A stretch of DNA of 64,000 nucleotides from assembly GCF_015711605.1 (NCBI RefSeq), contig NZ_JABTEZ010000001.1:1392001-1456000 (forward strand), in the 5' to 3' direction. This DNA is from Planomonospora sp. ID67723 (GTDB lineage Bacteria; Actinomycetota; Actinomycetes; Streptosporangiales; Streptosporangiaceae). The translations under genes and the position numbers were made by a program. The notes under the pieces are model-generated. The model ran no database searches, had not been told where the DNA came from, and saw only the letters and a program-made list of their open reading frames with translations. Below, in pieces: positions 1,376 to 43,007 of this stretch. How positions within the stretch are numbered: position 1 is the first letter of the stretch; every line of letters begins with the position of its first letter.

Positions 1376-2370
1376 GCCTCAGAACCCGGTCGCTGGTCCT
1401 GGCGCTGGCCGCCCTGCTCCTCGCGGGCGCGGCCGGCGGTTACACGCTCTGGGCCGCGGGCCGGCGCGACGCCGCCACCGCCGCCGGGGCGGGCCCTCCG
1501 GACGCGGTCCGCGGGCCGGTGCGGCTGGGAGGGCTGATGTTCCTGGCCGCCGGGGCCGGACCGGACAACGGGCACGTGGCGGGGGAGGCGGGCGGGAGCC
1601 GTACGGTCGCGCCGCAGACGTGCGCCAGGTTCTACGCAGCGGCGGGCACGGCGGTGTGCCTGCGGGCCGAGCGCGGCGCGGTCACCCGCTACCACGCACG
1701 GATCCTGGACCGCGGCCTGAGGGAGACGCGGAGCGTGGAGTTGCCCGGCGTGCCGAGCCGGGCGCGGGTGTCGGCCGCGGGCCACCTGGTGGCCTGGACC
1801 GTGTTCGTCAGCGGCGACTCCTACCTGACCTCGGGCATGTCGACGCGGACCGGGCTGCTCGACACGCGCACCGGGGAGGTGGTCCAGAGCCTGGAGCGGT
1901 TCGCGCTCTTCCGCGAGGGCCGGCGGGTCGAGGAGGCGGATCTCAACTACTGGGGGGTCACGTTCGCCCGGGACGAGGACACCTTCTACGCCTCCGCCTC
2001 CACCGGCGGCGTGGTCCACCTCGTACGGGGCAGCGTCTCCGCCGGCCGGATGGAGGTGCTGCGGGAGAACGCCGAGTGCCCGTCGCTCTCCCCGGACGGC
2101 ACCCGGGTCGTCTACAAGAAGCGGACCGGCGACGCCGCCGGCCCGTGGCGGCTGCACGTCCTGGAGCTGGGCACGGGCGGGGAGAGACCGCTCGCGGAGA
2201 CCGGGAACGTGGACGACCAGGCGGCGTGGCTCGACTCCGGGACCGTGATGTACGCCAAGGTGCGCGGTGACTCCAGCGACGTGTGGGCGGTCCCCGCCGA
2301 CGGGACCGGGAGACCGCGGTTGCTGCTGCGCGACGCCTACTCACCTGCTGCCGTGGAGGACGACGGATGA
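1372..2370 (+). CDS. Membrane-anchored or secreted TolB-like beta-propeller protein
   Basis: This 332-residue protein starts at ATG 1372, overlapping the preceding stop by ATGA. An arginine-containing N-terminus leads into a hydrophobic stretch at residues 8-23, which reads as a signal peptide or anchor. The remainder has repeated beta-propeller-like blades, including CPSLSPDGTRVVYKK near residue 238 and DVWAVPADGTG near the C-terminus, as in WD40/TolB-like proteins. No catalytic motif is visible. It is translationally coupled on both sides, since its stop overlaps the glycosyltransferase start at 2367. A structural or carbohydrate-sensing role at the envelope is inferred from context only. 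Confidence 0.75.
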   Translation: MSLRTRSLVLALAALLLAGAAGGYTLWAAGRRDAATAAGAGPPDAVRGPVRLGGLMFLAAGAGPDNGHVAGEAGGSRTVAPQTCARFYAAAGTAVCLRAERGAVTRYHARILDRGLRETRSVELPGVPSRARVSAAGHLVAWTVFVSGDSYLTSGMSTRTGLLDTRTGEVVQSLERFALFREGRRVEEADLNYWGVTFARDEDTFYASASTGGVVHLVRGSVSAGRMEVLRENAECPSLSPDGTRVVYKKRTGDAAGPWRLHVLELGTGGERPLAETGNVDDQAAWLDSGTVMYAKVRGDSSDVWAVPADGTGRPRLLLRDAYSPAAVEDDG

Positions 2371-3320
2371 AGCTCTCTGTGATCGTCGTGACCTACCGGA
2401 GCGGTGGCTACATCGGCCGCTGCCTGGCGGCGCTGGAGAGCGCCACCAAGGGCCTCGACGCCGAGGTCGTCGTCGTGGACAACAACTCCGGGGACGGGAC
2501 CGTGGACGCCGTGCGGGAGACGGCGCCGTGGGCGAAGGTCGTGGCGCGGGAGCGCAACGGCGGGTTCGCCGAGGGGTGCGTCGCGGGAGCGGAGGCCGCC
2601 CGAGGCCGGTACCTGGTCTTCGTCAATCCCGACGCCGAGGTGCAGGCCGGGGCGCTGTCCGAGCTGATCGCCTGCGCCGAGCGGCATCCTGACGCCGGGA
2701 TCGTCGGCGGGCGCTGCGTCACCGACGCCGGGGAGAGCGACCCCCGGTCCTGGTGGGGGCGGCCCACGCTGTGGTCGCTGTTCTGCTTCGGCACCGGGCT
2801 GTCCACGGTCTTCCCCGGCCACCCCCGCCTCGACCCGGAGTCGCCGCGCCCGTGGTCCGGCGATCCGGACGAGACGCGCCGGGTGCCGATCGTCACGGGC
2901 GCGCTGATGCTGGTCGAGCGCGCGCTCTGGGACCGCGTCGGCGGATTCGACACGCGCATCTTCATGTACGGGGAGGACGCCGACCTCTGCCTGCGCGCAG
3001 CGGCCGCCGGTTTCCGGCCCATGGTGACCGCTCGTGCGGTTTTTCTGCATCCGGGCGGAATGTCCTCAACCAGTCTGCGCAAAATGATGCTCCTTTACAC
3101 GGGGAAGGCGACCGTGGTCCGCCGCCATTTCCCGCCCGCGACCCGCGGGCTCGGCCTGGCGCTGCTCCAGGCGGGGGTGTGGCTGCGCGCGACGGCCAGC
3201 CGGGGCGTGGCGCCGCCGAGCGCGGAGCGGCAGGGACGCCCGACGACCTCGCGGTCCGACTGGCTCCCGCTCTGGAAGGCCAGGGCCGAATGGCGTGGGG
3301 GCTGGGACGACCGCCGTTAA
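2367..3320 (+). CDS. Family 2 glycosyltransferase, WbbL/rhamnosyltransferase-like
   Basis: This 317-residue GT-A fold protein opens with LSVIVVTYRSGGYIGRCL, the GT2 nucleotide-sugar binding strand, followed by VVVVDNNSGDGT. A VFVNPDAEV block near residues 86-94 carries the acidic metal-binding motif, and GGFDTRIFMYGEDADLCLR near residues 191-210 is the acceptor and ED motif typical of rhamnosyltransferases of the WbbL group. ATG 2367 overlaps the preceding stop. The upstream extension to 2283 would run inside the neighbour and was rejected. It probably adds a deoxyhexose, plausibly rhamnose given the flanking rml genes, to a lipid-linked glycan at the inner face of the membrane. Confidence 0.85.
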   Translation: MKLSVIVVTYRSGGYIGRCLAALESATKGLDAEVVVVDNNSGDGTVDAVRETAPWAKVVARERNGGFAEGCVAGAEAARGRYLVFVNPDAEVQAGALSELIACAERHPDAGIVGGRCVTDAGESDPRSWWGRPTLWSLFCFGTGLSTVFPGHPRLDPESPRPWSGDPDETRRVPIVTGALMLVERALWDRVGGFDTRIFMYGEDADLCLRAAAAGFRPMVTARAVFLHPGGMSSTSLRKMMLLYTGKATVVRRHFPPATRGLGLALLQAGVWLRATASRGVAPPSAERQGRPTTSRSDWLPLWKARAEWRGGWDDRR

Positions 3321-26647: not shown

Positions 26648-27694
26648 TCAGCCGATGCGCCAGGTGTCCCCGGCCAGGAGCAGGTCGTCCAGGTCGCCCC
26701 GGCCGCCCTGTGCGACGGCCTCTTCCAGCTGCGCCGACATCTGCTCGTCGTAGGACGGGCGGTCCACGCTGCGGAAGATCCCGACCGGGACGTGCTCGAA
26801 CGCCGGCTCGTCCAGCCGGGAGAGCGCGAAGGCCAGCGACGGGTCGGCGCGGTGCGCGTCGTGGACGAGGATCTCCTCCTCGCGCACCGACGCCCGGTCG
26901 ACGACCTCGATGCCGCCGTCGGCCGACCGCCGTACCGCCTTGGACGCCGAGACGATCGGCTGCCCGTGCTCCAGGCGCAGCGTGATGTCGTCGCGCTGCT
27001 CGGGGTCCTTGAGCTGGTCGAAGGCGCCGTCGTTGAAGATGTTGCAGTTCTGGTAGATCTCCACCAGCGAGGTGCCGTTGTGCTCGGCGGCCTCGCGCAG
27101 CACCGACTGCAGGTGCTTGCGGTCGGAGTCGAGGGTCCTGGCCACGAAGGAGGCCTCGGCGCCGATCGCCAGCGAGATCGGGTTGAACGGCTTGTCCAGC
27201 GAGCCCATCGGGGTGGACTTCGTGATCTTGCCGACCTCGGAGGTGGGGGAGTACTGGCCCTTGGTCAGGCCGTAGATCCTGTTGTTGAACAGCAGGATGT
27301 TCAGGTTGACGTTGCGGCGCAGCGCGTGGATCAGGTGGTTGCCGCCGATGGAGAGCGAGTCGCCGTCACCGGTGATCACCCACACGCTCAGGTCGGGACG
27401 CGAGGCGGCCAGGCCGGTGGCGATCGCCGGGGCACGGCCGTGGATGGAGTGGAAGCCGTAGGTGTTCATGTAGTACGGGAAGCGGGAGGAGCAGCCGATG
27501 CCCGAGACGAACACCATGTTCTCGCGCTTGAGGCCGAGCTCCGGGACGAAGGACTGGACCGCGGCCAGGATCGCGTAGTCACCGCAGCCCGGGCACCAGC
27601 GCACCTCCTGGTCGCTCTTGTAGTCCTTCATGGACTGCTTGGCGTCGGACTTGGGGACCAGGGACAGACCCCGGCCGTTCATGAGCTCACTCAC
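26648..27694 (-). CDS. korB: 2-oxoacid:ferredoxin oxidoreductase, beta subunit
   Basis: The 348-residue protein carries VRWCPGCGDYAILAAVQ and SGIGCSSRFPYY, two of the cysteine blocks that bind the [4Fe-4S] cluster. GDGDSLSIGGNHLIHALRRN is the thiamine-diphosphate GDG-x-N motif. It oxidatively decarboxylates 2-oxoglutarate, or another 2-oxoacid, with coenzyme A, passing electrons to ferredoxin. The GTG start at 27694 overlaps the end of korA by eight bases, and ATG 27682 in the same frame is an alternative. In many actinomycetes korAB replaces or supplements 2-oxoglutarate dehydrogenase. Here it lies upstream of a ferredoxin-type partial complex I locus, which matters for the electron flow. 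Confidence 0.9.
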   Translation of the reverse strand: MSELMNGRGLSLVPKSDAKQSMKDYKSDQEVRWCPGCGDYAILAAVQSFVPELGLKRENMVFVSGIGCSSRFPYYMNTYGFHSIHGRAPAIATGLAASRPDLSVWVITGDGDSLSIGGNHLIHALRRNVNLNILLFNNRIYGLTKGQYSPTSEVGKITKSTPMGSLDKPFNPISLAIGAEASFVARTLDSDRKHLQSVLREAAEHNGTSLVEIYQNCNIFNDGAFDQLKDPEQRDDITLRLEHGQPIVSASKAVRRSADGGIEVVDRASVREEEILVHDAHRADPSLAFALSRLDEPAFEHVPVGIFRSVDRPSYDEQMSAQLEEAVAQGGRGDLDDLLLAGDTWRIG

Positions 27695-29543
27695 TGTCGA
27701 TCACGTCCTGGATCACGCCGGCCAGTTCCTCCGCCTTGAACGGAAGCCCGCGCACGCGGTTGTAGCTGATGATGTCGACCAGGAAGCGGGCGCGCAGCAG
27801 CAGCGCGAGCTGGCCGAGGTTGATCTCCGGGAGCAGCACCTTGTCGTAGGACTTCAGCACCTCGCCGGTGTTGGCGGGCAGCGGGTTGAGGTGCCGCAGG
27901 TGCGCCTGGGCGACCTTCCCGCCGGCCGAGCGGATGCGCCGTACGGCCGCCGCGATCGGGCCGTAGGTCGAACCCCAGCCCAGCACGAGCACGCGGGTCC
28001 CGCCCTCGGGGCCGTCCGGGTCGTCGACCTCCAGCGCCGGGATGTCCTTGGCGATCCCGTCGATCTTGGCCTGGCGGAGCCGGACCATGCGGTCGTGGTT
28101 GTCCGGGTCGTAGGAGATGTTGCCGGTGCCGTCGGCCTTCTCGATGCCGCCGATGCGGTGCTCCAGGCCGGGGGTGCCCGGGATGGCCCAGGGGCGGGCG
28201 AGGGTCTCGGGGTCGCGCTTGAAGGGCAGGAACGTCTCGCCGTCGTTCGGCCCGGAGGCGAACTCGGTGGAGATGTCCGGCAGGTCGGCGGCGGCCGGCA
28301 CCTTCCACGGCTCGGAGCCGTTGGCGAGGTAGCCGTCGGAGAGCAGCATGACCGGCGTGCGGTACTTCACCGCGAGCCGGGCCGCCTCGACGGCCGCGTC
28401 GAAGCAGTCGCTCGGCGACATCGGCGCGACGACCGGCAGCGGCGACTCGCCGTTGCGGCCGTACATCGCCATCAGCAGGTCGGTCTGCTCGGTCTTGGTG
28501 GGCATGCCGGTCGACGGGCCCGCGCGCTGCACGTCCACCACGATCAGCGGCAGCTCGGTGGTGACGGCCAGGCCGACGGTCTCGGCCTTCAGCGCCACGC
28601 CGGGGCCGGAGGTCGTGGTGACGCCCAGCGCTCCGCCGAAGGACGCGCCGAGCGCCGCGCCGACGCCCGCGATCTCGTCCTCGGCCTGGAAGGTGCGGAT
28701 GCCGAACCGCTTGTGCTTGGAGAGCTCGTGCAGGATGTCGGAGGCCGGCGTGATCGGGTAGGACCCGAGGAACAGCGGGAGCTTCGACTGCACGCTCGCG
28801 GCGATCAGGCCGTAGGCGAGGGCCTGGTTGCCGGAGATGTTGCGGTAGACGCCCGCGGGCAGCTTGGCGGGCTTGACCTCGTAGGAGACCGAGAAGGACT
28901 CGGTGGTCTCGCCGTAGTTCCAGCCCGCGGTGAAGGCCGCGATGTTGGCCTTGGCGATGTCGGGCTTCTTGGCGAACTTGGTCTCCAGGAACGAGATCGT
29001 CGCCTCGGTCGGCCGGTGGTAGAGCCAGCTCAGCAGGCCGAGGGCGAACATGTTCTTGGAGCGCTCGGCGTCCTTCTTGGACAGGTCGAAGCCCTCGAGC
29101 GCCTTCACCGTCAGGGAGGTCAGCGGCACCGCGTGGACCCGCCACTCGGCGAGCGAGCCGTCCTCCAGCGGGCTGGCGTCGTAACCGACCTTCTGCAGGT
29201 TGCGCTTGGTGAACTCGTCGGTGTTGGCGATGATGTCGGCCCCGCGCGGCAGGTCGCCCAGGTTGGCCTTGAGTGCGGCGGGGTTCATCGCGACCAGGAC
29301 GTTGGGGGCGTCGCCGGGGGTGAGGATGTCGTGGTCGGCGAAGTGGAGCTGGAAGCTCGACACGCCCGGCAGTGTTCCTGCGGGGGCGCGGATCTCGGCC
29401 GGGAAGTTGGGCAGGGTGGACAGGTCGTTGCCGAACTCCGCCGTTCCCGCGGTGAAGCGATCACCCGTCAGCTGCATGCCGTCGCCGGAGTCGCCGGCGA
29501 AGCGGATGATCACGCGGTCGAGTTGCTGAACCTGCTTGGTCAC
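27687..29543 (-). CDS. korA: 2-oxoacid:ferredoxin oxidoreductase, fused gamma/alpha subunit
   Basis: The 618-residue protein fuses an N-terminal gamma domain (about 1-190, starting VIIRFAGDSGDGMQLTGDRF) with the alpha pyrophosphate-binding domain (from about 210, GNQALAYGLIAASVQSKLPL). LGSYPITPASDIL is the 2-oxoacid-binding block, and GVTTTSGPGVALKAETVGL the conserved loop. The fusion is the usual actinobacterial form. It forms an alpha2beta2 complex with the product of the overlapping korB gene. The start at 29543 is preceded by GAGGAGGACTGAGCTGTG on the coding strand. Expression is presumably driven from the upstream gap 29544-29928. Confidence 0.9.
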   Translation of the reverse strand: MTKQVQQLDRVIIRFAGDSGDGMQLTGDRFTAGTAEFGNDLSTLPNFPAEIRAPAGTLPGVSSFQLHFADHDILTPGDAPNVLVAMNPAALKANLGDLPRGADIIANTDEFTKRNLQKVGYDASPLEDGSLAEWRVHAVPLTSLTVKALEGFDLSKKDAERSKNMFALGLLSWLYHRPTEATISFLETKFAKKPDIAKANIAAFTAGWNYGETTESFSVSYEVKPAKLPAGVYRNISGNQALAYGLIAASVQSKLPLFLGSYPITPASDILHELSKHKRFGIRTFQAEDEIAGVGAALGASFGGALGVTTTSGPGVALKAETVGLAVTTELPLIVVDVQRAGPSTGMPTKTEQTDLLMAMYGRNGESPLPVVAPMSPSDCFDAAVEAARLAVKYRTPVMLLSDGYLANGSEPWKVPAAADLPDISTEFASGPNDGETFLPFKRDPETLARPWAIPGTPGLEHRIGGIEKADGTGNISYDPDNHDRMVRLRQAKIDGIAKDIPALEVDDPDGPEGGTRVLVLGWGSTYGPIAAAVRRIRSAGGKVAQAHLRHLNPLPANTGEVLKSYDKVLLPEINLGQLALLLRARFLVDIISYNRVRGLPFKAEELAGVIQDVIDSE

Positions 29544-31398: not shown

Positions 31399-31580
31399 GA
31401 ATGTCACGCTAGACGGAGAGTAATGCGCTTTACCCTCTCTTGGGGTTAATCGGAAAGAGGCTTTGTCGAATCCAGGTTTAGCCGCTCCGGAGCGTGATGG
31501 AGCCTGCGACGACAGTCATCGGATCCGGTCGCCCGGCCCGGCCCTGTGACGGAGGGGGTGCCTGCGGTTACGATCGATCC

Positions 31581-31952
31581 GTGGACGGGTATTTCGATCG
31601 CTACGCCGTGGTCGTCGTGCTTTTCGCGATCGGGATCGCCGTGGTCGCGGGAGGCCTGTTCGTCAACCGGATGCTCCGCCCGGACCGGCCGACCCCGGAC
31701 AAGCTGACGACCTACGAGTGCGGCGTCGACCCCGTGGGCGAGGGCTGGGCCCAGTCCCAGGTCCGCTACTACGTGTTCACCTATCTCTACGTGGTGTTCG
31801 CGGTGGACGCGGTCTTCCTCTTCCCCTGGGCCACGGTCTTCGCCGCGCCCGGGTTCGGGATGACCACGCTGGTGGAGATGTTCGTGTTCCTGGGCTTCAT
31901 CGCGATCGGAATCCTCTACGCCTGGCGCAAGCGCGTACTCGCCTGGACGTGA
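31581..31952 (+). CDS. nuoA: NADH-quinone oxidoreductase subunit A (complex I)
   Basis: The 123-residue membrane protein has three helices. The loop [15 protein letters not shown] carries the cysteine conserved in NuoA, where substrate access to the quinone site is gated. [20 protein letters not shown] is the second helix. GTG 31581 is chosen because translation upstream is not family-like and the family starts at the short DGYFDRYAV segment. The Shine-Dalgarno is weak. It opens a co-directional set nuoA-B-C-H, followed after a divergent kinase by nuoI to nuoN. NuoA belongs to the membrane arm next to NuoH. Confidence 0.88.
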
Positions 31953-31965
31953 CCGGGGAGGGAGA

Positions 31966-32526
31966 ATGCGTGACATGGCGGATCTCCCGATGCCCACTGT
32001 GCGATCTACTGCGCGACCCACCGTGGGGCCGCTCTCGCGGCTGGCTCCCAAACCCATGCGCTTCATCCTCAACTGGGGGCGGCGCTACTCGCTCTGGGCG
32101 TTCAACTTCGGCCTGGCCTGCTGCGCGATCGAGTTCATCGCGACCTCGATGAGCCGGCACGACTTCATCAGGTTCGGGGTGATCCCGTTCGCGAACGGTC
32201 CCCGGCAGGCCGACCTGATGATCGTCTCGGGCACGGTGACCGACAAGATGGCCCCGGCCGTGAAGCGGCTCTACGAGCAGATGCCCGACCCGAAGTACGT
32301 GATCTCCTTCGGGGCCTGCTCCAACACCGGCGGGCCGTACTGGGACTCCTACTGCGTCACCAAGGGCGTCGACCAGATCATCCCGGTGGACGTCTACGTC
32401 CCCGGCTGCCCGCCCCGGCCCGAGGCCCTGCTCCACGGGATCATGAAGCTCCAGGAGAAGATCGCCTCCGAGTCGCTCACCGACCGATACCGCCTCTCCG
32501 GGCCCTCGGGCGAGGAGGTCGTATGA
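31966..32526 (+). CDS. nuoB: NADH-quinone oxidoreductase subunit B
   Basis: The 186-residue protein carries the four ligands of the terminal N2 [4Fe-4S] cluster: adjacent Cys52 and Cys53 in GLACCAIEF, Cys118 in SFGACSN, and Cys148 in [10 protein letters not shown]2 passes electrons to quinone, so the subunit is built for catalysis. ATG 31966 follows GGGAGGGAGA. In complete complex I, NuoB contacts NuoD to form the quinone cavity, but no nuoD is present in this cluster. Its stop overlaps nuoC (ATGA at 32523). Confidence 0.92.
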
Positions 32527-33062
32527 GTTTCCCCGCGGAGCGGTACGGCTCCCGCGTCCGGCTCTCGGAGTCCTTCGGCGAGACCACCGCGGACGTGGCG
32601 GCCGAAGACTGGCTGGAGCTGCTGACGGCCGCCCGGGACGCGGGCTACGCGTTCCTCGACTGGCTGACCGGCGTCGACGACCCGCCGGACGGGTTCTGCG
32701 TCGTCGCGCACGTCTACGACCCCGCGGCGCACGCCCGGCTGCTGCTGCGCACCCGGGTGCCGCGCGCCGACCCCCGCCTGCCCAGCGCGGTGGGCGTGTT
32801 CCGGGGTGCGAACTGGCACGAGCGTGAGACCTTCGAGATGTTCGGCGTGGTCTTCGAGGGGCACCCGAACCTCGTCCCGCTGCTGCTTCCCGAGGGCTTC
32901 GAGGGCTTCCCGCTCCGCAAGGACTTCGTGCTGGCCTCGCGGGTCGCCAAGGCCTGGCCGGGGGCGAAGGAGCCCGGCGAGGGCCGCGAGTCGGAGGGCT
33001 CTCCGAGCCGCCGCAAGACGCTCCCGCCCGGGGTGCCGGCCGACTGGGGCCGTGATGGGTGA
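32523..33062 (+). CDS. nuoC: NADH-quinone oxidoreductase subunit C (30 kDa)
   Basis: The 179-residue protein contains the family signature [20 protein letters not shown] followed by [15 protein letters not shown]. It lacks the NuoD domain found in fused NuoCD forms, so the 49-kDa subunit is genuinely missing at this locus. A short charged tail follows residue 145. Its start overlaps the nuoB stop, and nuoH begins 52 bases downstream. That leaves no room for nuoD, E, F or G. Confidence 0.88.
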
Positions 33063-33114: not shown

Positions 33115-34068
33115 ATGCCTGAGGTGCTCGACGTCGCCGTCCGGCTCGTCGTGATCGTCGCGGCCTTCCTCGTGCTGCCGCTGGTCGCGGGGCAGATGGA
33201 GCACAAGGTCATGGCCCACATGCAGGCCCGGCTCGGCCCGATGTACGCCGGAGGCTTCCACGGCTGGGCCCAGCTGATCGCCGACGGGGTCAAGTTCGTC
33301 CAGAAGGAGGACGTGATCCCGGCCGCGGCCGACCGCCGGGTCTTCGGCCTGGCCCCGGGCGTCGCGCTGGTGCCGTACCTGGTGGTGATGGTCGTCATCC
33401 CGGTCGGTCCCGGTCTGGTCGGGGTGGACCTGGACGCCGGGCTGTTCTTCGTGCTCGCGGTGATGGGCATCGGCGTGCTGGGCTCGATCATGGCCGGCTG
33501 GTCCTCCGGGAACAAATACTCCCTGATGGGCGGGATGCGTTCGGCCGCCCAGCTCATGTCCTACGAGCTGCCGCTGGTGCTGGCGGCCTCCAGCGTCGCG
33601 ATGGCGGCGGGCACGCTCTCCCTGCCCGGCATCGTGGAGGCCTGGCAGTGGTGGTGGCTGCCCTGGCAGGCGATCGGCGGGGTGGTGTTCTTCACCGCGG
33701 GCCTCGCCGAGCTGCGCCGCCCGCCGTTCGACATGCCGATCGCCGACTCCGAGATCATCATGGGGCCCATGACGGAGTACGCCGGCATCCGGTTCGCCCT
33801 GTTCATGCTGGCCGAGTACGCAGGGATCATCGTGATCTCCGCGCTCACCAGCGTGCTGTTCCTGGGCGGCTGGCACGGGCCGCTGCTGCCCGGGCCCGTG
33901 TGGATGCTCCTGAAGGTGTTCGCGCTGGTGTTCGTGGTGATCTGGCTGCGGGTCAGCTACCCGCGGCTCCGCGAGGACCAGCTGCAGAAGCTCGCCTGGG
34001 CGGGGCTGGTCCCGCTGGCGCTGGTCCAGCTCGCGCTCACCGGGGTCGTCAGGGTCCTCGCCGTGTGA
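33115..34068 (+). CDS. nuoH: NADH-quinone oxidoreductase subunit H (complex I subunit 1)
   Basis: The 317-residue protein has about eight membrane helices and the conserved quinone-channel loops. LGPMYAGGFHGWAQLIADGVK corresponds to the first conserved loop, ELRRPPFDMPIADSEIIMG carries the acidic residues facing the quinone site, and MTEYAGIRFALFMLAEYAG follows. ATG 33115 is preceded by TTGGAGGCGG. It is slightly short compared with many NuoH proteins but has all core loops. Downstream, transcription is interrupted by a kinase gene on the other strand, and nuoI resumes at 35600. Confidence 0.9.
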   Translation: MPEVLDVAVRLVVIVAAFLVLPLVAGQMEHKVMAHMQARLGPMYAGGFHGWAQLIADGVKFVQKEDVIPAAADRRVFGLAPGVALVPYLVVMVVIPVGPGLVGVDLDAGLFFVLAVMGIGVLGSIMAGWSSGNKYSLMGGMRSAAQLMSYELPLVLAASSVAMAAGTLSLPGIVEAWQWWWLPWQAIGGVVFFTAGLAELRRPPFDMPIADSEIIMGPMTEYAGIRFALFMLAEYAGIIVISALTSVLFLGGWHGPLLPGPVWMLLKVFALVFVVIWLRVSYPRLREDQLQKLAWAGLVPLALVQLALTGVVRVLAV

Positions 34069-34086: not shown

Positions 34087-35412
34087 TCACTGGACGATCC
34101 GCAGCATGATGTCGGCGGCCGTGGGCCGGTTGGCGGGGTGCTTCTCCAGGCAGGCGGCGGCCAGCGGGCGCAGGGAGGGCGGCAGCGGTGACAGGTCCGG
34201 CTGGTGGTTGATCACCCGGTTGAGGATGGCCGGGATGGTGTCCGAGCCGAAGGCGACGCGGCCCGAGGCGGCGTAGATCATGGTGGACGCCCAGCTGAAC
34301 ACGTCGGACTCCGGGCCGACGTGCCCGCCGGCGAGCTGCTCGGGGGACATGTAGGCGGGGGTGCCCATGACACTGGAGGTCGCGGTGACCTGGTCCAGCG
34401 CGCGGGCGATGCCGAAGTCGATCACCCGGGGGCCGTCGGCGCCGATCAGCACGTTGGCCGGCTTGAAGTCCCGGTGCACGATCCCCGCCCGGTGGATGGC
34501 GGCCAGCGCCCCGGCGGTGGACAGGGCCAGCCGGGTCAGCCCGTCGCCGTCCCGCGGTCCCCGGTCGCGCACGAGCTGCTCCAGCGAGACCCCGTCCACG
34601 TACTCGCTGACGACGTAGGCCTGGTCGTCGTTGATGCTCACGTCCAGCACGCGGGCGGTGGAGAACGTCGCGACCTTGCGCGTCGCCTCCACCTCGCGCA
34701 GGAACCGCTCCCGGGCGGCGCGGTCCCCGACGAAGTGCTCGTGCAGGACCTTGATCGCCACTTTCTGCCCCTGCGGGGTGAGAGCCAGGTGGACCGTGCC
34801 CTGGCCGCCCTTGCCGAGGCTGCCGATCAGCCGGTAGGGCCCGATCCAGCCGTTCGGGGCCGGAGCGGGCTGCGGCTGCCGTACGTGCTGGTCCTGGGGG
34901 TGGTGCCCCTGGGTGGGCTGGCTCTGGAAATGGTGCTGCGGAGGGATCGGGGTGTGCATGTGCGAGGGCTGGGTGGTCGCCACGGGGGGAGGGTACGGCC
35001 CGGCGGAAGGGTGGGCCGGGGCGTGGTGGACCTGCTGGATCCCGGGCTGCTGACGGAAGACCGAACCCCGGATGATCAGGGCGTGGATCATCCCGCCGAG
35101 CCAGCTGCCGAGCAGCCCGATCGTGAGCACGGCGTTCAGCCAGCCCGGGATCAGGTCGGAGTCCCCGTAGGTGCCCGCCCCGATGACGAACACGCCCATC
35201 CCGAGGGTGTACAGGGCGGTCGCGAAGACGAGGGGCACGCTCCGCAGCCGCCGTGCGGCGAATCCCATGATGAACGGCGTTCCGAACCCGCAGGTGAACA
35301 GGGGGACCATCGCCCACAGCACGGTCAGGCCCGTGTTGGAGGGCACGGGCTGCGGCCCGTGCGGCTGCTGCGGGTGGTGCGGGCGCCAGTTGGGGCCGTA
35401 CTGCTGGGACAT
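34087..35412 (-). CDS. Membrane Ser/Thr protein kinase with C-terminal catalytic domain
   Basis: The 441-residue protein starts at ATG 35412. Residues 29-115 contain about three membrane helices, and residues 120-188 are a Pro/Gln/His-rich linker. A complete Hanks-type kinase domain runs from about 193 to the end: GKGGQGTVHLAL for the P-loop, Lys221 in VAIKVL, HRDFKPANV with catalytic Asp315, DFG at 332-334 and GTPAYMSPEQLAG for the activation loop. The order is reversed compared with PknB types, where the kinase is N-terminal, and no extracellular PASTA or sensor domain exists. It sits antisense between nuoH and nuoI, so it may be a local regulator of the respiratory cluster or a bystander. 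Confidence 0.85.
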   Translation of the reverse strand: MSQQYGPNWRPHHPQQPHGPQPVPSNTGLTVLWAMVPLFTCGFGTPFIMGFAARRLRSVPLVFATALYTLGMGVFVIGAGTYGDSDLIPGWLNAVLTIGLLGSWLGGMIHALIIRGSVFRQQPGIQQVHHAPAHPSAGPYPPPVATTQPSHMHTPIPPQHHFQSQPTQGHHPQDQHVRQPQPAPAPNGWIGPYRLIGSLGKGGQGTVHLALTPQGQKVAIKVLHEHFVGDRAARERFLREVEATRKVATFSTARVLDVSINDDQAYVVSEYVDGVSLEQLVRDRGPRDGDGLTRLALSTAGALAAIHRAGIVHRDFKPANVLIGADGPRVIDFGIARALDQVTATSSVMGTPAYMSPEQLAGGHVGPESDVFSWASTMIYAASGRVAFGSDTIPAILNRVINHQPDLSPLPPSLRPLAAACLEKHPANRPTAADIMLRIVQ

Positions 35413-35510
35413 GGCGCGAACAATACGTACATCTGAAGACTCTTGCAGTCCCCTTACCGATGGTTTCCCGCGATCGGGCACAGGAGTCGAACACACAGAC
35501 TGTGGATAAC

Positions 35511-35532
35511 TGCTGTGGATAACCGGGGAAGT
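35511..35532. promoter_or_regulatory. Two perfect DnaA-box 9-mers upstream of nuoI and the kinase
   Basis: TGTGGATAA occurs at 35511-35519 and again at 35524-35532, in the same orientation with 13 bases between starts. Its reverse complement TTATCCACA is the canonical DnaA box. The pair lies in the 187-base gap between the divergent kinase (start 35412) and nuoI (start 35600). Whether DnaA binds here is inferred from the motif alone. Confidence 0.55.
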
Positions 35533-35599
35533 CGGGGAACGGCGTCCTCCCCCGGACTGCCGCATTCCCGAGCGGCGTGCCGTACGTCATGATGTTGAA

Positions 35600-36481
35600 G
35601 TGGCGCGGATACCAGGAGTAGGACTGGCGAAGGGGCTGTCGGTCACCCTTCGGCACATGTTGAGCAGGTCGGTGACCCAGCAGTACCCCGAGGTGCGGCC
35701 GGACCTGCCCGCCCGCAGCCGGGGGGTGATCGCGCTGGTCGAGGAGAACTGCACGGTGTGCATGCTCTGCGCCCGTGAGTGTCCCGACTGGTGCATCTAC
35801 ATCGACTCGCACAAGGAGACGCTCCCCGCCCCGGAGGGCGGGCGCCCGCGCGCCCGGAACGTGCTCGACCGCTTCGCGATCGACTTCTCCCTGTGCATGT
35901 ACTGCGGGATCTGCATCGAGGTCTGCCCCTTCGACGCGCTGTTCTGGTCGCCGGAGTTCGAGTACGCCGAGGGCGACATCCGCAACCTCGTCCACGAGAA
36001 GGACCGCCTGGCGGCCTGGGTGCAGACGGTTCCGCCGCCGCCCGCCCACGAGCCCAACGCCGACCCGCCCAAGGAGCTCGCCGCGGCCTCCCGTCCCGCC
36101 CGTCCCGACGCCCCTCGTGCCGCCCGCGCCCGTCCGGGTGCCGCCGGGGAGGCGGAGACCGTACGGCCCGGCGGCGAGGAGCGGCCCGCACGGCCGGGCA
36201 GGGAGGAGAGGCCCGCCGGGGAGCGGCCGGGCAGGGATGAGCGGCCCGCACGGCCGGGCGCCGGGCATGCCAGCGTCCGGGCGATCAAGCCGCCGGGCGC
36301 GCTCCCGAAGAAGCCGGGTCCGTCCCCCGACCCTGACCCGCCGGCCACCGGAACGCCGTCCACAGGCGGGCCGTCATCCGACACGTCGTCCACAGGTGGG
36401 GGCGACCTGCCGCCGGTGAAGGGCACGCCGGAGCAGACTGCTGGCACGGACCCCGGTGGAGAGCCCGAGGAGGAGTCGTGA
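35600..36481 (+). CDS. nuoI: NADH-quinone oxidoreductase subunit I with long disordered tail
   Basis: The 293-residue product uses GTG 35600. The N-terminal part is a normal NuoI with two [4Fe-4S] motifs: cysteines 51, 54, 57 and 61 in [12 protein letters not shown], and 99, 102, 105 and 109 in [12 protein letters not shown]. These form the N6a/N6b relay from ferredoxin-like donors to NuoB. After about residue 150 comes an unusual tail of about 140 residues, rich in Pro, Arg, Gly, Glu and Asp, with imperfect repeats ([18 protein letters not shown]). Most NuoI proteins end near 160-220. Its stop overlaps nuoJ (GTGA at 36478). Confidence 0.87.
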
Positions 36482-37017
36482 CGGAAACGGTGCCGTCCTA
36501 CCTGTCGCCGACCGGTCAGGAGATCGTCTTCCTCCTCCTGGGTGCGGTGGCGGTCGGGTCGGCGCTCCTGGTCGTGGTCACCAGGCAGCTCGTCCACGCC
36601 GCGCTCTGGCTGGTCCTCTGCTTCGGCGCCCTGGCGGGGTGCTACCTGGTCCTGACGGCCGAGTTCGTCGCGTGGGTCCAGGTGCTGATCTACGTCGGGG
36701 CCGTCGTCGTCCTGCTGCTGTTCGGCATCATGCTCACCCGCGCCCCGATCGGCAGGGCCGCCGACCTGGACAGCGGAAACAAGATCGTCGCCGCGGTGGT
36801 GGCGATCGCGACCGCGGTCGTGCTGGTGACCGTGGTCGTCGACGGTTTCCGCACGGCCTACGCCCCCCTCGACTCCGCGACGGGTTCGGCCAAGGAGCTC
36901 GGCTCCGCCGTCTTCCGCAACTGGGTGCTGCCCTTCGAGGCGCTCTCGGTCCTCCTGCTGGCCGCCCTGATCGGCGCCATCGTCATCTCCCGCACCGACA
37001 TCCGGGGGAGGGACTGA
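36478..37017 (+). CDS. nuoJ: NADH-quinone oxidoreductase subunit J
   Basis: The 179-residue membrane protein has five helices typical of ND6/Nuo[21 protein letters not shown] and [20 protein letters not shown] are the conserved second and third helices, the latter including the pi-bulge-forming YVGA segment of this subunit. GTG 36478 overlaps the nuoI stop, so translation is coupled. NuoJ lies in the membrane arm between NuoH/A and NuoK and helps link redox chemistry to proton pumping. The gap to nuoK is one base. Confidence 0.88.
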
Positions 37018-37018
37018 C

Positions 37019-37492
37019 GTGCACGTCGTCTACCCGGCGATCGTCTCGGCCCTGCTGTTCTCCATCGGCGTGTACGGCGTGCTCGCCCGCCGCAACACCA
37101 TCCTGGTCCTGATGTCCGTCGAGCTCATGCTCAACGCGGTCAACCTCAACCTGGTCGCCTTCGACGTGTGGCTGCGCGACCGGCTCCACGGCGGCCAGGT
37201 CCTCACGCTCTTCGTCATAGTGATCGCCGCCGCCGAGGTGGGACTCGGCCTGGCGATCGTCCTGGCGCTCTACCGCAACCGCCGGACCGTGGATCTCGAC
37301 CGTCTCCGCACCCTCGCCGAGACTCCGCCCTCCGCGGCGGACCCGGCCTCCGCCGCGTCCCCCACGGGACCCGATTCCCCCGCGGTCGCCGGCCGGGGCC
37401 GGCCCGGAGGCGAGGGCGGGCCGCCCGCCGGGGCCGCCGCGGCGCCGGGGGCCGGGCCGGAGCGCGTGGCCCGAGCGGAGGAGACGTCATGA
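37019..37492 (+). CDS. nuoK: NADH-quinone oxidoreductase subunit K with C-terminal extension
   Basis: The 157-residue product uses GTG 37019. The first 100 residues match NuoK/ND4L, with [19 protein letters not shown] holding the two membrane glutamates region and [20 protein letters not shown] the second helix with its glutamate. A 55-residue Ala/Pro/Gly-rich tail follows, absent from the usual 100-residue subunit. The stop overlaps nuoL (ATGA at 37489). The tail appears disordered. It parallels the unusual tail of NuoI and the loop in NuoM. Confidence 0.86.
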
Positions 37493-39483
37493 TCACGATC
37501 GCCGCGCTCACCGTCCTGCTGCCGTTCCTGGCCGCCGTCGCCGGTCTTCTCGGCTCCCGATGGCCCGGGCGCGTCCGCGGTGAGAGCGCCGCCGACGCCC
37601 GGGCCGGGGCGACGCAGGCCCGGGACGCGCACGAGACGGAGCAGACCGACCGGGTGGCGGGCCGCCGGGCCGCCTGGATCGCCGTCGTGCCCGCGGCGGT
37701 CTCCGCGGCCCTCGCGGGCTGGCTGGCCTACGCCGGCTGGACGGGGCTCGGCGCGGGCGGAGGAGAGCCGTTCCCGGCCTCGGCCGGGTCCACCGTCGTG
37801 CCCGGGATGGAAGGCGTCACGGGCACGCTCACCGTCATCGACACGGGCTCGGTCCCGATCTCCGTCGGGCTGCTCGTCGACGGCCTCGCCGCGACGATCG
37901 GCGTGCTGGTCACGGTGGTCGCGCTCGCCGTGCAGATCTACTCCGTCGGCTACCTGCACGGCGACCGCCGCTACCCCTCCTACAGCGCTTTCATCAGCCT
38001 GTTCACCAGCGCCATGCTCCTGGTCGTCTACGCGGCCGACCTCCTCGTCCTCTACGTGGGCTGGGAGATCATGGGTCTGTGCTCCTACCTGCTGATCGGG
38101 CACTGGTGGGAGGACCGGGCCAACTCCCGGGCCGCGGTCAAGGCGTTCCTGGTCACCCGGCTCGGCGACGTCGGCTTCCTGTTCGGGATCTTCGTCCTCG
38201 GCACGGCGGCCGGCAGCTTCAGGATCGCCGACGTCCTCGCCGCGCTCCCGGACATGTCCTCCGGCACGGTCATCGCCGCGACCATGCTGCTCCTCGCCGG
38301 GGTGGCGGGCAAGAGCGCCCAGGTCCCGCTGCACACCTGGCTCCCGGACGCGATGGCGGGCCCGACCCCGATCAGCGCGCTCATCCATGCCGCCACCATG
38401 GTCGCCGCCGGGATCTTCATCGTCGCCCGGCTCCACCCCGTCTTCCTCGCCGCCGGACCCACCATGGACGTGCTCGCCGTCCTCGCCGCGCTCGGCATGC
38501 TCGGCGCTGCGCTGGCGGCCCTCGCGCAAGACGACCTCAAGCGCGTCCTGGCCTACTCCACGATCAGCCAGCTCGCCTACATGGCGGCGGCGCTGGCCGC
38601 CGGCTCCGCCGACGCGGCCGTCTTCCACCTGGTCACCCACGGCGCGTTCAAGGCGCTGCTCTTCCTCTGCGCCGGGGTGGTCATCCACGCGGTGGGATCC
38701 AACCTGATGAGTTCGATGGGAGGTCTCCGCCGGGAGCTTCCCGTCACCTTCGTCACGATGACGGTCGGCTTCGCCGCGCTGATGGGCCTCCCTCCGGCCA
38801 GCGGCTTCTTCAGCAAGGACGAGGTGCTGGTCGCCGTCGAGCGCTCCGTCGCGCAGGGGCCGCTCACCGACGCGGCCGCCCTGCTGCTGTACGGCAGCGC
38901 CCTGGCCACGATCGCGGTGACCGGCGCCTACGCCACCCGCGCGTGGTTGCGGACGTTCTTCGGGCCCCGCACGGTCACCGCGCTCCCCGAGCCCGCCCCC
39001 GGCACGGCCCACGTGATCGACACCCGGGAGGCCCCCGCCACCATGCGCTGGCCGATCACCGTCCTCGCGGTCCCGGCGCTGCTGCTGGGGTTCGCCGGTC
39101 TCACCGGTGTCCACTGGGGCACGGCCGCGCTGAGCGTCGCCGTGGCCCTGCTCGGTGCCGGAGCGGTCTACGCCTTCTGGCGGAGCGACCCCGTGAACGA
39201 TCCGGCTCGCATGCTCGGCCCCTTCCGCGTCCCCTGCGAGCGGGCCTTCTACGTCGACTCCGCCTACCAGGCGCTGTTCGCCCGCCCGGTCCTCGCCCTC
39301 GCCCGCATGGTCGTCCGCGCCGACGACCATGTGGTGGACGGCGCGGTGCGCGGCTCGGGCCGGGCGGCTCTGGGCCTGTCCGGCCTGGTTCGCCTCGCGC
39401 AGAACGGCAACGTCCAGCTCTACGTGACCGGCCTGCTCGCGGGCGTGCTCCTCATCGCGGTCGGGGCGGTGGTGTTCGGTTGA
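37489..39483 (+). CDS. nuoL: NADH-quinone oxidoreductase subunit L (antiporter-like)
   Basis: The 664-residue protein has about 16 membrane segments. [20 protein letters not shown] carries the conserved helix-5 glutamate, [20 protein letters not shown] the helix-7 lysine and PT block, and [16 protein letters not shown] the helix-8 region. [13 protein letters not shown] is also characteristic. A lateral helix and the C-terminal region are present, as expected for NuoL at the distal end of the membrane arm. A short hydrophilic insert follows the first helix (residues about 24-60, [20 protein letters not shown]). It starts by overlapping the nuoK stop. Confidence 0.88.
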
Positions 39484-39594: not shown

Positions 39595-41295
39595 GTGAAC
39601 TGGTTGCCGATCCTGCTGCTCGCGGCGCCGCTGGCCGGGGCCGCCGCGCTGCTCGCGCCGTCGCGGATGGACGCCGCCTCCCGGGGGAGGCTGCTCCGCG
39701 TCCACGGCCTGGCCGTCTCCGGGGTGACGTTCGTGCTGGCCGTGGTGCTCGCGGCCACCTTCGACTACGGCGACCCGGCCCGGGTGCAGTTCGAGACCGA
39801 CCTGGCCTGGATCCCCGGCCTGGACCTCAGGTTCCACCTCGGGGTCGACGGGATCTCGATGCCGCTGGTCGTGCTGACCGCGCTGCTGACCTTCCTGTGC
39901 TTCGTCTACCTGTGCCGGGGCCGCGCCGACGGCCCCGGGCAGCTGCTGCGACCCAAGGCGGGCGGAAACAGGCCGCGTGCCCTGGTCTTCACGCTGCTCG
40001 TCCTCGAAGTCGGCATGATCGGCACGTTCCTCGCCCTCGACCTGCTGCTGTTCTTCGTGTTCTTCGAGGTCGTCCTCATCCCGATGTACTTCGTGATCGC
40101 CGTCTGGGGCGGTCGGGCCCGCCGGGCGGCGGCGGTCAAGTTCATCCTCTACACGCTGCTCGGCTCGGTCGTGCTGCTGCTCGGCCTCCTGCTCATCTGG
40201 GCCCAGACCGGCACCCTGGACATGGTCGCCCTCGCCCGGGCGCACGGCACCGGCATGTCTCATTCGGTGCAGGTCATCGCCTTCGTCGCGGTCGGGATCG
40301 GCCTGGCGGTCAAGACCCCGATGTGGCCGCTGCACACCTGGCTGCCCGATGCCCACACCGAGGCGCCCACCGTCGGCTCGGTGCTCCTGGCGGGTGTGCT
40401 GCTCAAGATGGGCACCTACGGCTTCGCCCGCATCGCGATCCCGGTCCTGCCTGACGGCGCCGCCGAGGTCGCCCCCTGGCTGGGCGCCCTGGCGGTGATC
40501 GGCATCATCTACGGCTCCCTCGCCTGCCTGGCCCAGCGCGACCTCAAGCGGATGATCGCCTACTCCTCGATCGGGCACATGGGCTTCGTGCTGCTCGGCT
40601 TCGCCACGCTGACCCCGGTCGGCGTCAACGCCGCCCTGTTCGGCAACATCGCCCACGGCCTGATCACGGGCCTGTTGTTCTTCGTCGCCGGGGCGATCAA
40701 GGAGCGGTACGGCACCGCCGACATGCCCGCGCTCGGCGGGGGCATGCTCTCCCGCCTGCCCCACCTCGGATCCCTGCTGACCTTCGCCTGCATCGCCTCG
40801 CTCGGACTGCCGGGACTGGCCGGTTTCTGGGGCGAGATGCTCGCCCTCCTCGGAGCCTTCGAACCGGCCCCGGGCCTGTCCCGCCCGCTCTTCCTGGCCT
40901 TCATGGCCGTCGGCGGCCTCGGCGCCGTGCTGACTGCCGCCTATTTCCTGGTGATGCTCTCCCGCGTCACCCACGGACGTCCCACCGAGACCGTCCACGC
41001 TCCCGTGCTCGCCGCGGCGGGAGGCTCCGCCGGACCCGATGCCCCGGCCCTCCCGGACGCCGGGGCCCATGCCGCAGGTGACGGCGACGGCGACGGCGAC
41101 GGGAAGGACGCAACCGGAGGGAAGGGCGCAGGATCCGGAGGCGCCGCCAGAGGCGGCGGGCTCCGCGACGTCATGGGGCACGAACTGGCCGCCTGGGTGC
41201 CGCTGATCCTGCTGATCCTGCTGTTCGGCCTCTGGCCGAAGGCGCTCCTCCTCATCACCGATCCGGTGGTCCGGACCTTCATGGGGGCACCGTGA
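39595..41295 (+). CDS. nuoM: NADH-quinone oxidoreductase subunit M (antiporter-like)
   Basis: The 566-residue protein has about 14 membrane segments. LRFHLGVDGISMPLVVLTAL is the conserved start of helix 3, FFVFFEVVLIPMYFVIAVWG contains the key glutamate, and [20 protein letters not shown] the lysine and PT motif. LPGLAGFWGEMLALLGAF follows. Between the last two helices is an inserted Gly/Asp/Ala-rich segment at about residues 465-520 (for example AGDGDGDGDGKDATGG), longer than in typical NuoM. GTG 39595 follows a gap of 40 bases. The stop overlaps nuoN (GTGA at 41292). Confidence 0.88.
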   Translation: MNWLPILLLAAPLAGAAALLAPSRMDAASRGRLLRVHGLAVSGVTFVLAVVLAATFDYGDPARVQFETDLAWIPGLDLRFHLGVDGISMPLVVLTALLTFLCFVYLCRGRADGPGQLLRPKAGGNRPRALVFTLLVLEVGMIGTFLALDLLLFFVFFEVVLIPMYFVIAVWGGRARRAAAVKFILYTLLGSVVLLLGLLLIWAQTGTLDMVALARAHGTGMSHSVQVIAFVAVGIGLAVKTPMWPLHTWLPDAHTEAPTVGSVLLAGVLLKMGTYGFARIAIPVLPDGAAEVAPWLGALAVIGIIYGSLACLAQRDLKRMIAYSSIGHMGFVLLGFATLTPVGVNAALFGNIAHGLITGLLFFVAGAIKERYGTADMPALGGGMLSRLPHLGSLLTFACIASLGLPGLAGFWGEMLALLGAFEPAPGLSRPLFLAFMAVGGLGAVLTAAYFLVMLSRVTHGRPTETVHAPVLAAAGGSAGPDAPALPDAGAHAAGDGDGDGDGKDATGGKGAGSGGAARGGGLRDVMGHELAAWVPLILLILLFGLWPKALLLITDPVVRTFMGAP

Positions 41296-43007
41296 TCCAG
41301 TCGATCGACTACTACGCGATCGCCGCACCGCTGATCCTCGCGCTGGTCGCCGGGCTCGTCCTGCTCCTGGACGCCTTCCTGCCGCGCAGGCCGTACGCGC
41401 GGCCCGCGCTGGGGCTGATCACGCTGGCCGGAGTGCTGGGGGCGCTGGGCGTGGTCGTCTCCCAGGCGCTGCGCGGCGGGGCCCCGCTGCGGACGTTCTG
41501 CGTCCCCGAAGGCCTGGCGGGTCCCGCGCGAGCCGGGCTGGGCGCCCTTCCCCCCGCGGGCGGACCCTCCGCGGCGGCCGGTGCCTCGTGCTCGTTCGTG
41601 GTGGACGGTTTCACCCTGGTCTTCGCGGGACTCGTGCTCCTGGCCGGAGCCGTCGTGGTGCTGCTGTCGATGGCGGAGCTCGCCGACGGGGACGTCCCCG
41701 TCGGCGAGTGGTACTTCCTGCTGCTCTGCGCCCTTGTCGGAGCGGTCTCCCTGCCCGCCGCGAGGGACATGGTCATGCTGGTGGTCGCGCTGGAGCTGGT
41801 CTCGCTGCCGGTCTTCGCGCTCACCGCGCTCAGACGTTACGACGGGCGGGCCTCCGAGGCCGCCGTCAAGCTCTTCCTGGTCTCGGTGGTCTCGACGGCG
41901 GTGATGCTCTTCGGCGTCTCCCTCCTCTACGGCATGACCGGGACCGTCTATCTCGACCGGCTGGCCCAGACCCTGCGGGAGACCCTTCACGAGTCCGTAA
42001 CGGGGTCGGGGCGGCCCGAGGCGCTCTCCGGCGCCGGCGGGGTCGGCCAGGCCGACCGGAGCGATGCGGCCTACACCTCCCTCCTGGAGATCACCTACGA
42101 CCTTCCGCCCGTGGTCACCGTGGCCGTGGTGCTGGTCATCGCCGGGTTCGCCTTCAAGGTCGCGGCGGTGCCGTTCCACGCCTGGGCGGCCGACGTCTAC
42201 CAGGGGGCTCCGATCCCGGTGGCGGCGCTGCTCTCGGTGATCTCCAAGGCGGCGGGGTTCGCGGGGCTGATCCTCGTGCTGGTCGCCGCCCTGGGCGACC
42301 AGGCCGCCGTCTGGGCCCCGATCATCGCGATCATCGCCGCGCTGACCATGACCGCGGGCAACCTCCTGGCGCTCCGGCAGCGCAACGCCGTCCGCCTGCT
42401 CGCGTGGTCCTCCGTTGCCCAGTCCGGTTACATCCTCGCCCCGCTCGGCGTCCAGAGCCGCGAGGCGATGGGCGCCTCCATCGCCTACCTGGTCTTCTAC
42501 GCGGCGATGAACCTCGGGGCTTTCACCGTGGTCATGCTGGTGTCACGGCGGGACGGCGGTGAGCTCGACGACTACCGGGGACTGGTGTTCCGGAGCCCGG
42601 CGGCCGGACTGGGACTGGCGTTCTTCCTGGTCTGCCTGGCCGGGCTGCCGCCGGGGCTGGCCGGGCTGTTCGCCAAGATCGTGGTGTTCAGGGAGATCGT
42701 CGACGGCGGAGGGGCCTGGCTGGCCGCGGTGATGGCGGTCAACACCGTCATCGGTCTCTACTACTACATCGCCTGGGCCGTACGGATCTTCGCTCCCGTT
42801 CGCGTACCGCTGGACGGCGGCGCGGGCCCGGCCGTCACAGGAGGAGGCGAGAGCGCCGGTGCGGTCTTCGGGACGGGCGGTACGCACCGGGGGGTGCTGC
42901 CCGTGGGCGTGGCGATCGCCCTGACGGGGCTCGTCGCGGTGGCGTTCTCGGTGGCTCCGCAATGGGCGCTCGACCTGGTGCCGGGAGCCTTCACCGGCTC
43001 CGGCTGA
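41292..43007 (+). CDS. nuoN: NADH-quinone oxidoreductase subunit N (antiporter-like)
   Basis: The 571-residue protein has about 14 membrane segments. VVALELVSLPVFALTALRR carries the helix-5 glutamate, VAAVPFHAWAADVYQGAPIP the helix-7 region, and WSSVAQSGYILAPLG the helix-8 block. LAGLPPGLAGLFAKIVVF is typical of NuoN. Loops after residues 225 and 520 are longer than usual and Gly/Ser-rich. It ends the nuo cluster, and htpX begins 118 bases later. GTG 41292 overlaps the nuoM stop. Confidence 0.88.
   Translation: MIQSIDYYAIAAPLILALVAGLVLLLDAFLPRRPYARPALGLITLAGVLGALGVVVSQALRGGAPLRTFCVPEGLAGPARAGLGALPPAGGPSAAAGASCSFVVDGFTLVFAGLVLLAGAVVVLLSMAELADGDVPVGEWYFLLLCALVGAVSLPAARDMVMLVVALELVSLPVFALTALRRYDGRASEAAVKLFLVSVVSTAVMLFGVSLLYGMTGTVYLDRLAQTLRETLHESVTGSGRPEALSGAGGVGQADRSDAAYTSLLEITYDLPPVVTVAVVLVIAGFAFKVAAVPFHAWAADVYQGAPIPVAALLSVISKAAGFAGLILVLVAALGDQAAVWAPIIAIIAALTMTAGNLLALRQRNAVRLLAWSSVAQSGYILAPLGVQSREAMGASIAYLVFYAAMNLGAFTVVMLVSRRDGGELDDYRGLVFRSPAAGLGLAFFLVCLAGLPPGLAGLFAKIVVFREIVDGGGAWLAAVMAVNTVIGLYYYIAWAVRIFAPVRVPLDGGAGPAVTGGGESAGAVFGTGGTHRGVLPVGVAIALTGLVAVAFSVAPQWALDLVPGAFTGSG

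Follow-up and report, generated by a model that had tools for sequence, protein, structure and literature searches.

The gene at positions 34087 to 35412 of the window, by which we mean the whole stretch of 64,000 nucleotides of Planomonospora sp. ID67723 DNA that was analysed, raises the question of what a protein kinase gene is doing between nuoH and nuoI, on the strand opposite to both. The features that bear on the answer are given here by position in the window:

26648..27694, minus strand: korB, 2-oxoacid:ferredoxin oxidoreductase beta subunit, in the conserved neighbourhood
27687..29543, minus strand: korA, 2-oxoacid:ferredoxin oxidoreductase alpha subunit
31494..31952, plus strand: nuoA2
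31966..32526, plus strand: nuoB2 (Pfam)
32523..33062, plus strand: nuoC2 (Pfam)
33115..34068, plus strand: nuoH2 (Pfam NADHdh, E = 2.5e-103)
34087..35412, minus strand: TM-kinase gene (441 aa) for a membrane domain, a disordered linker and a C-terminal Hanks-type kinase (ORF, translation, Pfam, alignment)
34105..34836, minus strand: protein kinase domain, residues 193-436 (Pfam; catalytic residues invariant in 30 relatives)
34855..35055, minus strand: Pro/Gln/His-rich linker, mostly predicted disordered (sequence, structure model)
35038..35376 (contig 1427038-1427376), minus strand: membrane domain common with TM-HhH proteins (A1 profile positions 1-110, E = 1.8e-42)
35501..35509, minus strand: exact copy of TTATCCACA, a DnaA-box-like site between the divergent genes, upstream of nuoI
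35514..35522, minus strand: another exact copy of TTATCCACA, at a distance of 13 bp
35600..36481, plus strand: nuoI2 with a long C-terminal tail (293 aa; Pfam)
36478..37017, plus strand: nuoJ2 (Pfam)
37019..37492, plus strand: nuoK2, with a tail (157 aa; Pfam)
37168..39483, plus strand: open frame with nuoL2; the match begins at about frame residue 114, the true start lying downstream of 37168
39595..41295, plus strand: nuoM2
41292..43007, plus strand: nuoN2

The kinase gene and the cluster that surrounds it

The cluster encodes subunits A, B, C, H, I, J, K, L, M and N, is without NuoD, E, F and G, and is flanked by the divergent korA/korB genes and a polysaccharide deacetylase gene before it and by an M48 peptidase gene after it. 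NuoD homologues are found elsewhere on the same contig, and a second NuoH (42% identical) about 100 kb upstream fits a canonical nuo operon at that place. The partial subunit set, together with NuoD and a second NuoH elsewhere, thus marks the cluster as nuo2 and not the canonical one. Close NuoI2 homologues occur in 89 of 296 class-level genomes.

The kinase gene ends 18 bp from nuoH (end 34068), to which it is convergent, and starts 187 bp from the divergent nuoI (start 35600). The reading frame is open upstream as far as an alternative start at 35565, and 35412 was retained as the start. A chance or false ORF was ruled out by the codon-position G+C, which is that of a real gene, by the Pfam Pkinase match to residues 193-436, which at E = 2e-42 and 145.8 bits (cut-off 31.7) is far beyond chance, and by the invariance of Lys221, Glu240, HRD 313-315, Lys317, Asn320, DFG 332-334 and PE 357-358 in 30 of 30 aligned nuo2-linked kinases, among which the window protein itself and the kinase of a reduced cluster (G123, see below) are counted. 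These residues include the Hanks-type catalytic set (K221, E240, HRD, N320, DFG and the APE-like PE 357-358), and their intactness suggests a working kinase with predicted Ser/Thr phosphotransfer activity.

N-terminal to the kinase are three hydrophobic segments (approximately residues 27-56, 59-81 and 90-118), the first of which appears as a helix broken around a conserved TCGFGTPF motif in a structure model that is itself poor (mean pLDDT 63), and a linker of which residues 123-133 and 149-186 are predicted to be disordered (pLDDT <50). In Pfam searches the window protein matched kinase-type families only, with no HhH domain and no PASTA domain, and neither it nor 32 members of its membrane-domain family matched any of the 14 core Nuo subunits. 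The earlier note on this DNA, made from the sequence alone, had described a complete kinase (Lys221, Asp315, DFG) placed C-terminally behind three membrane helices and a Pro/Gln/His linker, lacking a sensor domain and lying antisense between nuoH and nuoI; our analysis agrees on each of these points, with the refinements that the first helix is broken in the model, that the missing sensor is an extracytoplasmic one, and that the nuo cluster is a partial nuo2.

One membrane domain with two alternative C-terminal domains

We surveyed 120 genomes of the window's family (Streptosporangiaceae) and found a close NuoH2 in 63 and a close NuoI2 in 68, both being on one contig and strand in 62. The nuoH2-nuoI2 gap is 14-177 bp in 14 of these 62 genomes and 876-6667 bp in the other 48. 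All 48 long gaps were fetched and a profile of the kinase's N-terminal domain was iterated over them, whereupon a gene with the membrane domain was found in 44 (44 of 62 genomes), every one antisense; it was not found in four long gaps (L052, L053, L071 and L084). The kinase form lies within the interval in 21 of the 62 genomes, and the kinase was therefore rejected as the conserved item of the interval, the membrane domain being common to 44. The idea that a kinase sits at nuo in one species only was likewise rejected, since it recurs across the sampled genomes and at named loci. The latter are 76 loci that were found by a membrane-domain motif and not by position, and overlap partly with the survey genomes. 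In 73 of the 76, nuoI2 lies upstream of and divergent from the gene for the membrane protein (TM gene), which has the kinase at 43 and only the HhH form described below at 30; nuoI2 directly adjoins it in most, with genes between in, for example, L133. The remaining three are without nuoI2: L122, at a contig end, and L145 and L156, which are unlinked TM-kinases. The nearest named relative found was Planomonospora venezuelensis (L103). From the start of the membrane domain to nuoI the median distance is 281 bp, and the TM gene is usually the one nearest nuoI, with L075 as an exception. The linkage of kinase and nuoI, which the earlier note had proposed to look for in related genomes, is thus conserved (21 of 62 family genomes, 43 of 76 named loci).

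The membrane domain, of about 104 aa, is the same in kinase and non-kinase proteins and is without a Pfam match (weak matches only among the 32 members searched, best E 0.012). The non-kinase proteins end in a conserved domain of about 110 aa that matches the helix-hairpin-helix family HHH_3 (E = 1.4e-8), above the cut-off in L058 (35.1 vs 27 bits) and below it in L072 (23.8 bits); we refer to them as TM-HhH. In fold this domain resembles ComEA (Z 10.4, rmsd 1.4, 65 residues aligned; by Foldseek alone, E = 0.13), Tex (Z 9.7) and, with a lower score, PsbU. The membrane part of the TM-HhH model gave fold matches of Z 4.1 or less only, which are uninformative either way. TM-HhH begins with a Pro-rich N-terminus, which is followed by three membrane helices, one of them broken and two full, and by an HhH domain that is presumably cytosolic.

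At the 44 survey loci the HhH form stands alone in 23, the kinase form alone in 12, and both occur in tandem in 9. Among the 148 nuo2-linked membrane domains of the tree set, 82 run in frame into an HhH domain, 66 into a kinase and none into neither. By genus, the named loci of Actinomadura, Microbispora and Sphaerimonospora have the HhH form only, those of Nonomuraea, Planomonospora, Planobispora and Thermocatellispora the kinase only, and Acrocarpospora and most Sphaerisporangium loci both (L120 has HhH only). One gap (L054, genome G028, positions 248-3083) holds three consecutive antisense genes of the family. Besides a TM-kinase and a TM-HhH gene there is a further one, with its membrane domain divided between two frames. 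What is conserved between nuoH2 and nuoI2 is a membrane protein encoded antisense, which comes with either of two heads, kinase or HhH, the latter being the more widespread. The simplest reading is that an older TM-HhH gene was duplicated, that the duplicate became a TM-kinase, and that one or the other copy was then lost.

Outside the family, nuoH2 and nuoI2 lie within 145 bp of each other in 52 of 59 class-level genomes and 422-5124 bp apart in seven, and no TM gene was found inside these seven longer intervals. This comparison excludes rows that lacked a partner (NuoH of G143, G235, G245 and the second of G156; NuoI of G143 and G152), NuoI rows with an E value of 3.0e-58 or weaker, and every genome of the window's own family. 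Among the seven, G054, which belongs to a different family (f17), has a TM-HhH gene divergent from nuoA2 instead. Apart from rare other cases, the antisense gene is confined to the window's family.

Presence of the membrane domain also follows that of NuoI2. At a threshold of E<=1e-12 the domain is found in 56 of the 120 family genomes, 55 of which have NuoI2, and is absent from 51 of the 52 genomes without NuoI2 (Fisher p about 2e-20, not corrected for kinship). Of the 56 bearing genomes, 48 have it at nuo2 and eight (G005, G010, G093, G100, G112, G121, G136 and G142) only away from it. Since the A1 searches scored no more than 38 candidates per genome (family) or 15 (class), these absences are soft, and since the A1 profile was built from members of nuo2 intervals, such members score best by construction. 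NuoI2 is present without the membrane domain in 13 of 68 family genomes at this threshold, and this, together with the 14 of 62 genomes in which nuoH2 and nuoI2 are 14-177 bp apart, indicates that the membrane gene is dispensable.

Unlinked copies exist and bear on a point raised by the earlier note, which held that finding the kinase at other loci in close relatives would count against a tie to nuo. A tree of 82 kinase domains puts the 45 that are nuo2-linked on one side of a branch with moderate support (SH-aLRT 88), and 11 unlinked TM-kinases form a group of their own (SH-aLRT 99) that is sister to the linked group (93); the unlinked genes are therefore a separate clade, and the tie to nuo is not refuted by them. 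They share the domain order of the window protein, are located elsewhere in the same genomes, and share 53-61% identity with the catalytic domain of the window protein; in 9 of 14 rows the neighbouring gene encodes another, distant kinase. The pair formed by an unlinked TM-kinase and an opposite-strand distant kinase (about 30% identical) recurs in L180-L183, L186, L043 and L044. The trees are from quick searches, on rows thinned from 92 different to 82 (kinase) and from 172 to 127 (membrane domain), the latter with 105 columns only. On the membrane-domain tree two changes are required for the linked kinases and five for the linked HhH copies, and one Acrocarpospora HhH copy groups with kinase copies, which, on these few columns, suggests swapping of the C-terminal domain. 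Unlinked TM-HhH paralogues were seen in L187, L188, L190 and L192, and also in L189, L191 and L198. An M24 peptidase gene adjoins the first four, which were scanned, and a LigD-like gene those of L187 and L188; these neighbours were set aside as a functional clue, there being no redox theme in the four scanned loci.

Reduced clusters and the competing explanations

Five genomes have lost most of the nuo2 cluster. NuoH2 is absent genome-wide from G123 (genus code g6), G081 and G117 (g79) and G088 and G264 (g86), in which the canonical protein (40-42% identity with NuoH2) is the sole NuoH. Their nuo2 loci (L258, L260, L261, L262 and L259) are without A, H, J, K, L, M and N, save for a 43-residue NuoJ remnant in G123 (L262), and retain, in the usual order, KorBA, NuoB, NuoC, an intact TM gene, NuoI and M48; in G088 (L259) the contig starts inside the cluster and the TM gene, NuoI and M48 only are visible. 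The retained TM gene encodes the kinase form in G123 and the HhH form in the other four. Other members of g6 and g86 (G006, G119, G141 and G394) have both NuoH2 and the TM gene, so that in these two genera the loss took place within the genus. One further genome (G071, g69) has kept B, C and I and has no TM gene. Because the TM gene stays beside NuoI after the loss of A, H and J-N, the family is tied to NuoI (B-C-I) and not to the pump. The membrane protein probably serves the Kor/NuoB-C-I module, a view which gene content supports well, if short of proof.

Our main reading, to which we give a probability of about one half, is that the window gene is the kinase form of a nuo2-dedicated membrane family and acts on the NuoB-C-I module. 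The membrane domain would keep the protein at or near this peripheral module, possibly in physical contact with it, and the module would probably be fed electrons by a ferredoxin that the neighbouring KorAB reduces. In part of the Streptosporangiaceae a copy has an intact Hanks-type kinase where the ordinary member has HhH, and this form would place a membrane-bound kinase beside the module. The kinase might then phosphorylate a subunit or an assembly partner (a Nuo2 or Kor protein would be our guess) and so set the amount of reductant that enters. Against this reading count the dispensability of the gene, the eight genomes that have the domain only away from nuo2, the case of G071, the varied cargo of the H-I junction described below, and the moderate support for the group of linked kinases. 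In a broader and more tentative form, which we regard as possible and no better than that, this undescribed family would be a dedicated NuoB-C-I partner that outlives the pump arm and comes in interchangeable HhH and kinase forms, and after loss of the pump the TM protein may be the only membrane attachment of a KorAB-ferredoxin-NuoBCI path.

The TM genes could instead be passengers at a permissive junction, tolerated there because nuoI has its own promoter, with the kinase acting on something unrelated. In favour of this are the wide spread in length of the H-I interval (14 to 6667 bp), its varied cargo, and the existence of unlinked TM-kinase and TM-HhH genes. The cargo includes genes for a histidine kinase, an ABC transporter, an SDR, a TetR protein and an alpha/beta hydrolase (L079, L071, L075 and L086), and its variety indicates that the junction is indeed permissive, which keeps the passenger explanation alive at a lower probability. 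However, one family occupies 44 of 48 long intervals in constant orientation, usually nearest nuoI with other cargo mostly on the nuoH side (L075 excepted); it persists where the neighbouring nuo genes have been deleted, is linked to nuo2 in G054 as well, there at a different site, and is nearly absent from genomes without NuoI2. We therefore consider a mere passenger unlikely.

The earlier note had suggested control of the respiratory complex by phosphorylation, perhaps of the long disordered tails of NuoI and NuoK. The tie of the kinase to the respiratory complex stands in so far as the linkage is conserved, and calls for revision in so far as the kinase is only one of two C-termini on the nuo2-linked membrane domain. 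The long NuoI (293 aa) and NuoK (157 aa) of the window were confirmed. These NuoI2 and NuoK2 tails are rich in Pro, Arg and Gly, and their length depends strongly on the species (NuoI 154-684 aa). Both subunits are on average longer at kinase-bearing loci; with Actinomadura set aside, the NuoI median is 365 aa at loci with the kinase and 271.5 aa at those without it (p = 0.005, uncorrected). In a test of independent pairs, with five loci that repeat named genomes left out, the two supported pairs had on average 0.8 in the expected direction and 0.1 in the opposite one; there were only these two (p = 1), and phosphorylation of the tails thus found no phylogenetically independent support. Moreover, NuoI is long without a kinase in L200 (519 aa), L203 (437 aa), L205 (389 aa) and L210 (456 aa) and nearly tailless with one in Acrocarpospora (L108-L112, 186-189 aa), and NuoK2 is gone from the reduced clusters, yet G123 keeps an intact kinase. 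Regulation of the complex through its tails is on this evidence very unlikely.

A DNA-binding role, in which the family would be an assembly or transcription factor whose HhH domain binds DNA as ComEA does and controls the divergent nuoI promoter, the kinase form signalling to transcription, draws on the ComEA/Tex-like sequence and fold (Z 10.4 and 9.7), the divergent arrangement, and conserved sites about 100 bp upstream of nuoI. The DnaA box has the 9-mer consensus TTRTCCACA, and both copies of TTATCCACA in the window fit it and are candidate boxes; the sequence occurs twice in the whole window, both times in the kinase-nuoI region, where 0.03 would be expected. In the 450 bp that precede nuoI2, 63 of 122 loci have the consensus (the window being counted twice and overlapping genomes included), with 93 sites against 0.19 expected from shuffles, mostly near -100. 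Among 75 aligned sites matched in one orientation with TGTGG[AT][TC]AA, A fills the first free position every time, T (55 sites) or C (20 sites) fills the second, and 68 are followed by a C. Against such a role, the same HhH fold serves in protein-contact proteins (PsbU, the T2SS minor pseudopilin). In addition, the Actinomadura loci have TM-HhH and none has TTRTCCACA upstream of nuoI2, and three genomes with an interval devoid of the TM gene (L052, L071 and L084) have the sites, which means that the sites do not track the protein. We hold control of the nuoI promoter to be the least probable of these explanations, and highly doubtful.

Should the broader form of our reading be true, a respiratory-type module carries its own built-in kinase in some lineages, and if the kinase does act on the module, a complex of respiratory type would have a Ser/Thr kinase of its own, dedicated to it and linked by gene position. 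Natural genomes with HhH or kinase on the same anchor are a ready-made comparison. The nuo2 cluster is widespread in actinomycetes, and a gene that remains with NuoB, C and I after loss of the membrane arm is a concrete handle on the role of that module.

Comparison with known systems

The window cluster has a counterpart in Streptomyces coelicolor, where SCO4599-SCO4608 are described as a second nuo cluster missing several subunits and of unclear function (PMC9239103). The two are alike in being partial and apart from the canonical nuo genes. Unlike the window's H-I interval with its antisense gene, the nuo2 clusters outside the window's family have nuoH and nuoI at most 145 bp apart in 52 of 59 genomes. 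In the literature searched, as title listings and the beginnings of abstracts, we found no kinase or HhH protein in a nuo interval.

The C-terminal domain of TM-HhH is like the HhH domains (HHH_3) of ComEA, T2SS-K and PsbU in sequence and ComEA-like in fold, and differs from the ComEA type in that the HhH is fused to a membrane domain that is undescribed; in the loci looked at, no genes for competence or secretion were recognised next to TM-HhH.

Among solved structures the kinase best matches PknA, PknB and StkP (E about 1e-31 to 1e-30), with which it has the full catalytic domain in common. The best NCBIfam matches cover the kinase domain only and lie far below their cut-offs (AfsK, 204.6 of 1300 bits; PASTA kinase, 183.4 of 450 bits). 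A receptor kinase of the PASTA/PknB type has an N-terminal kinase, a single TM helix and an extracytoplasmic PASTA sensor. In contrast to the PknB/StkP type, the window kinase is C-terminal, behind a polytopic membrane domain, and has no extracytoplasmic sensor. The window protein is a new domain combination within a known kinase class.
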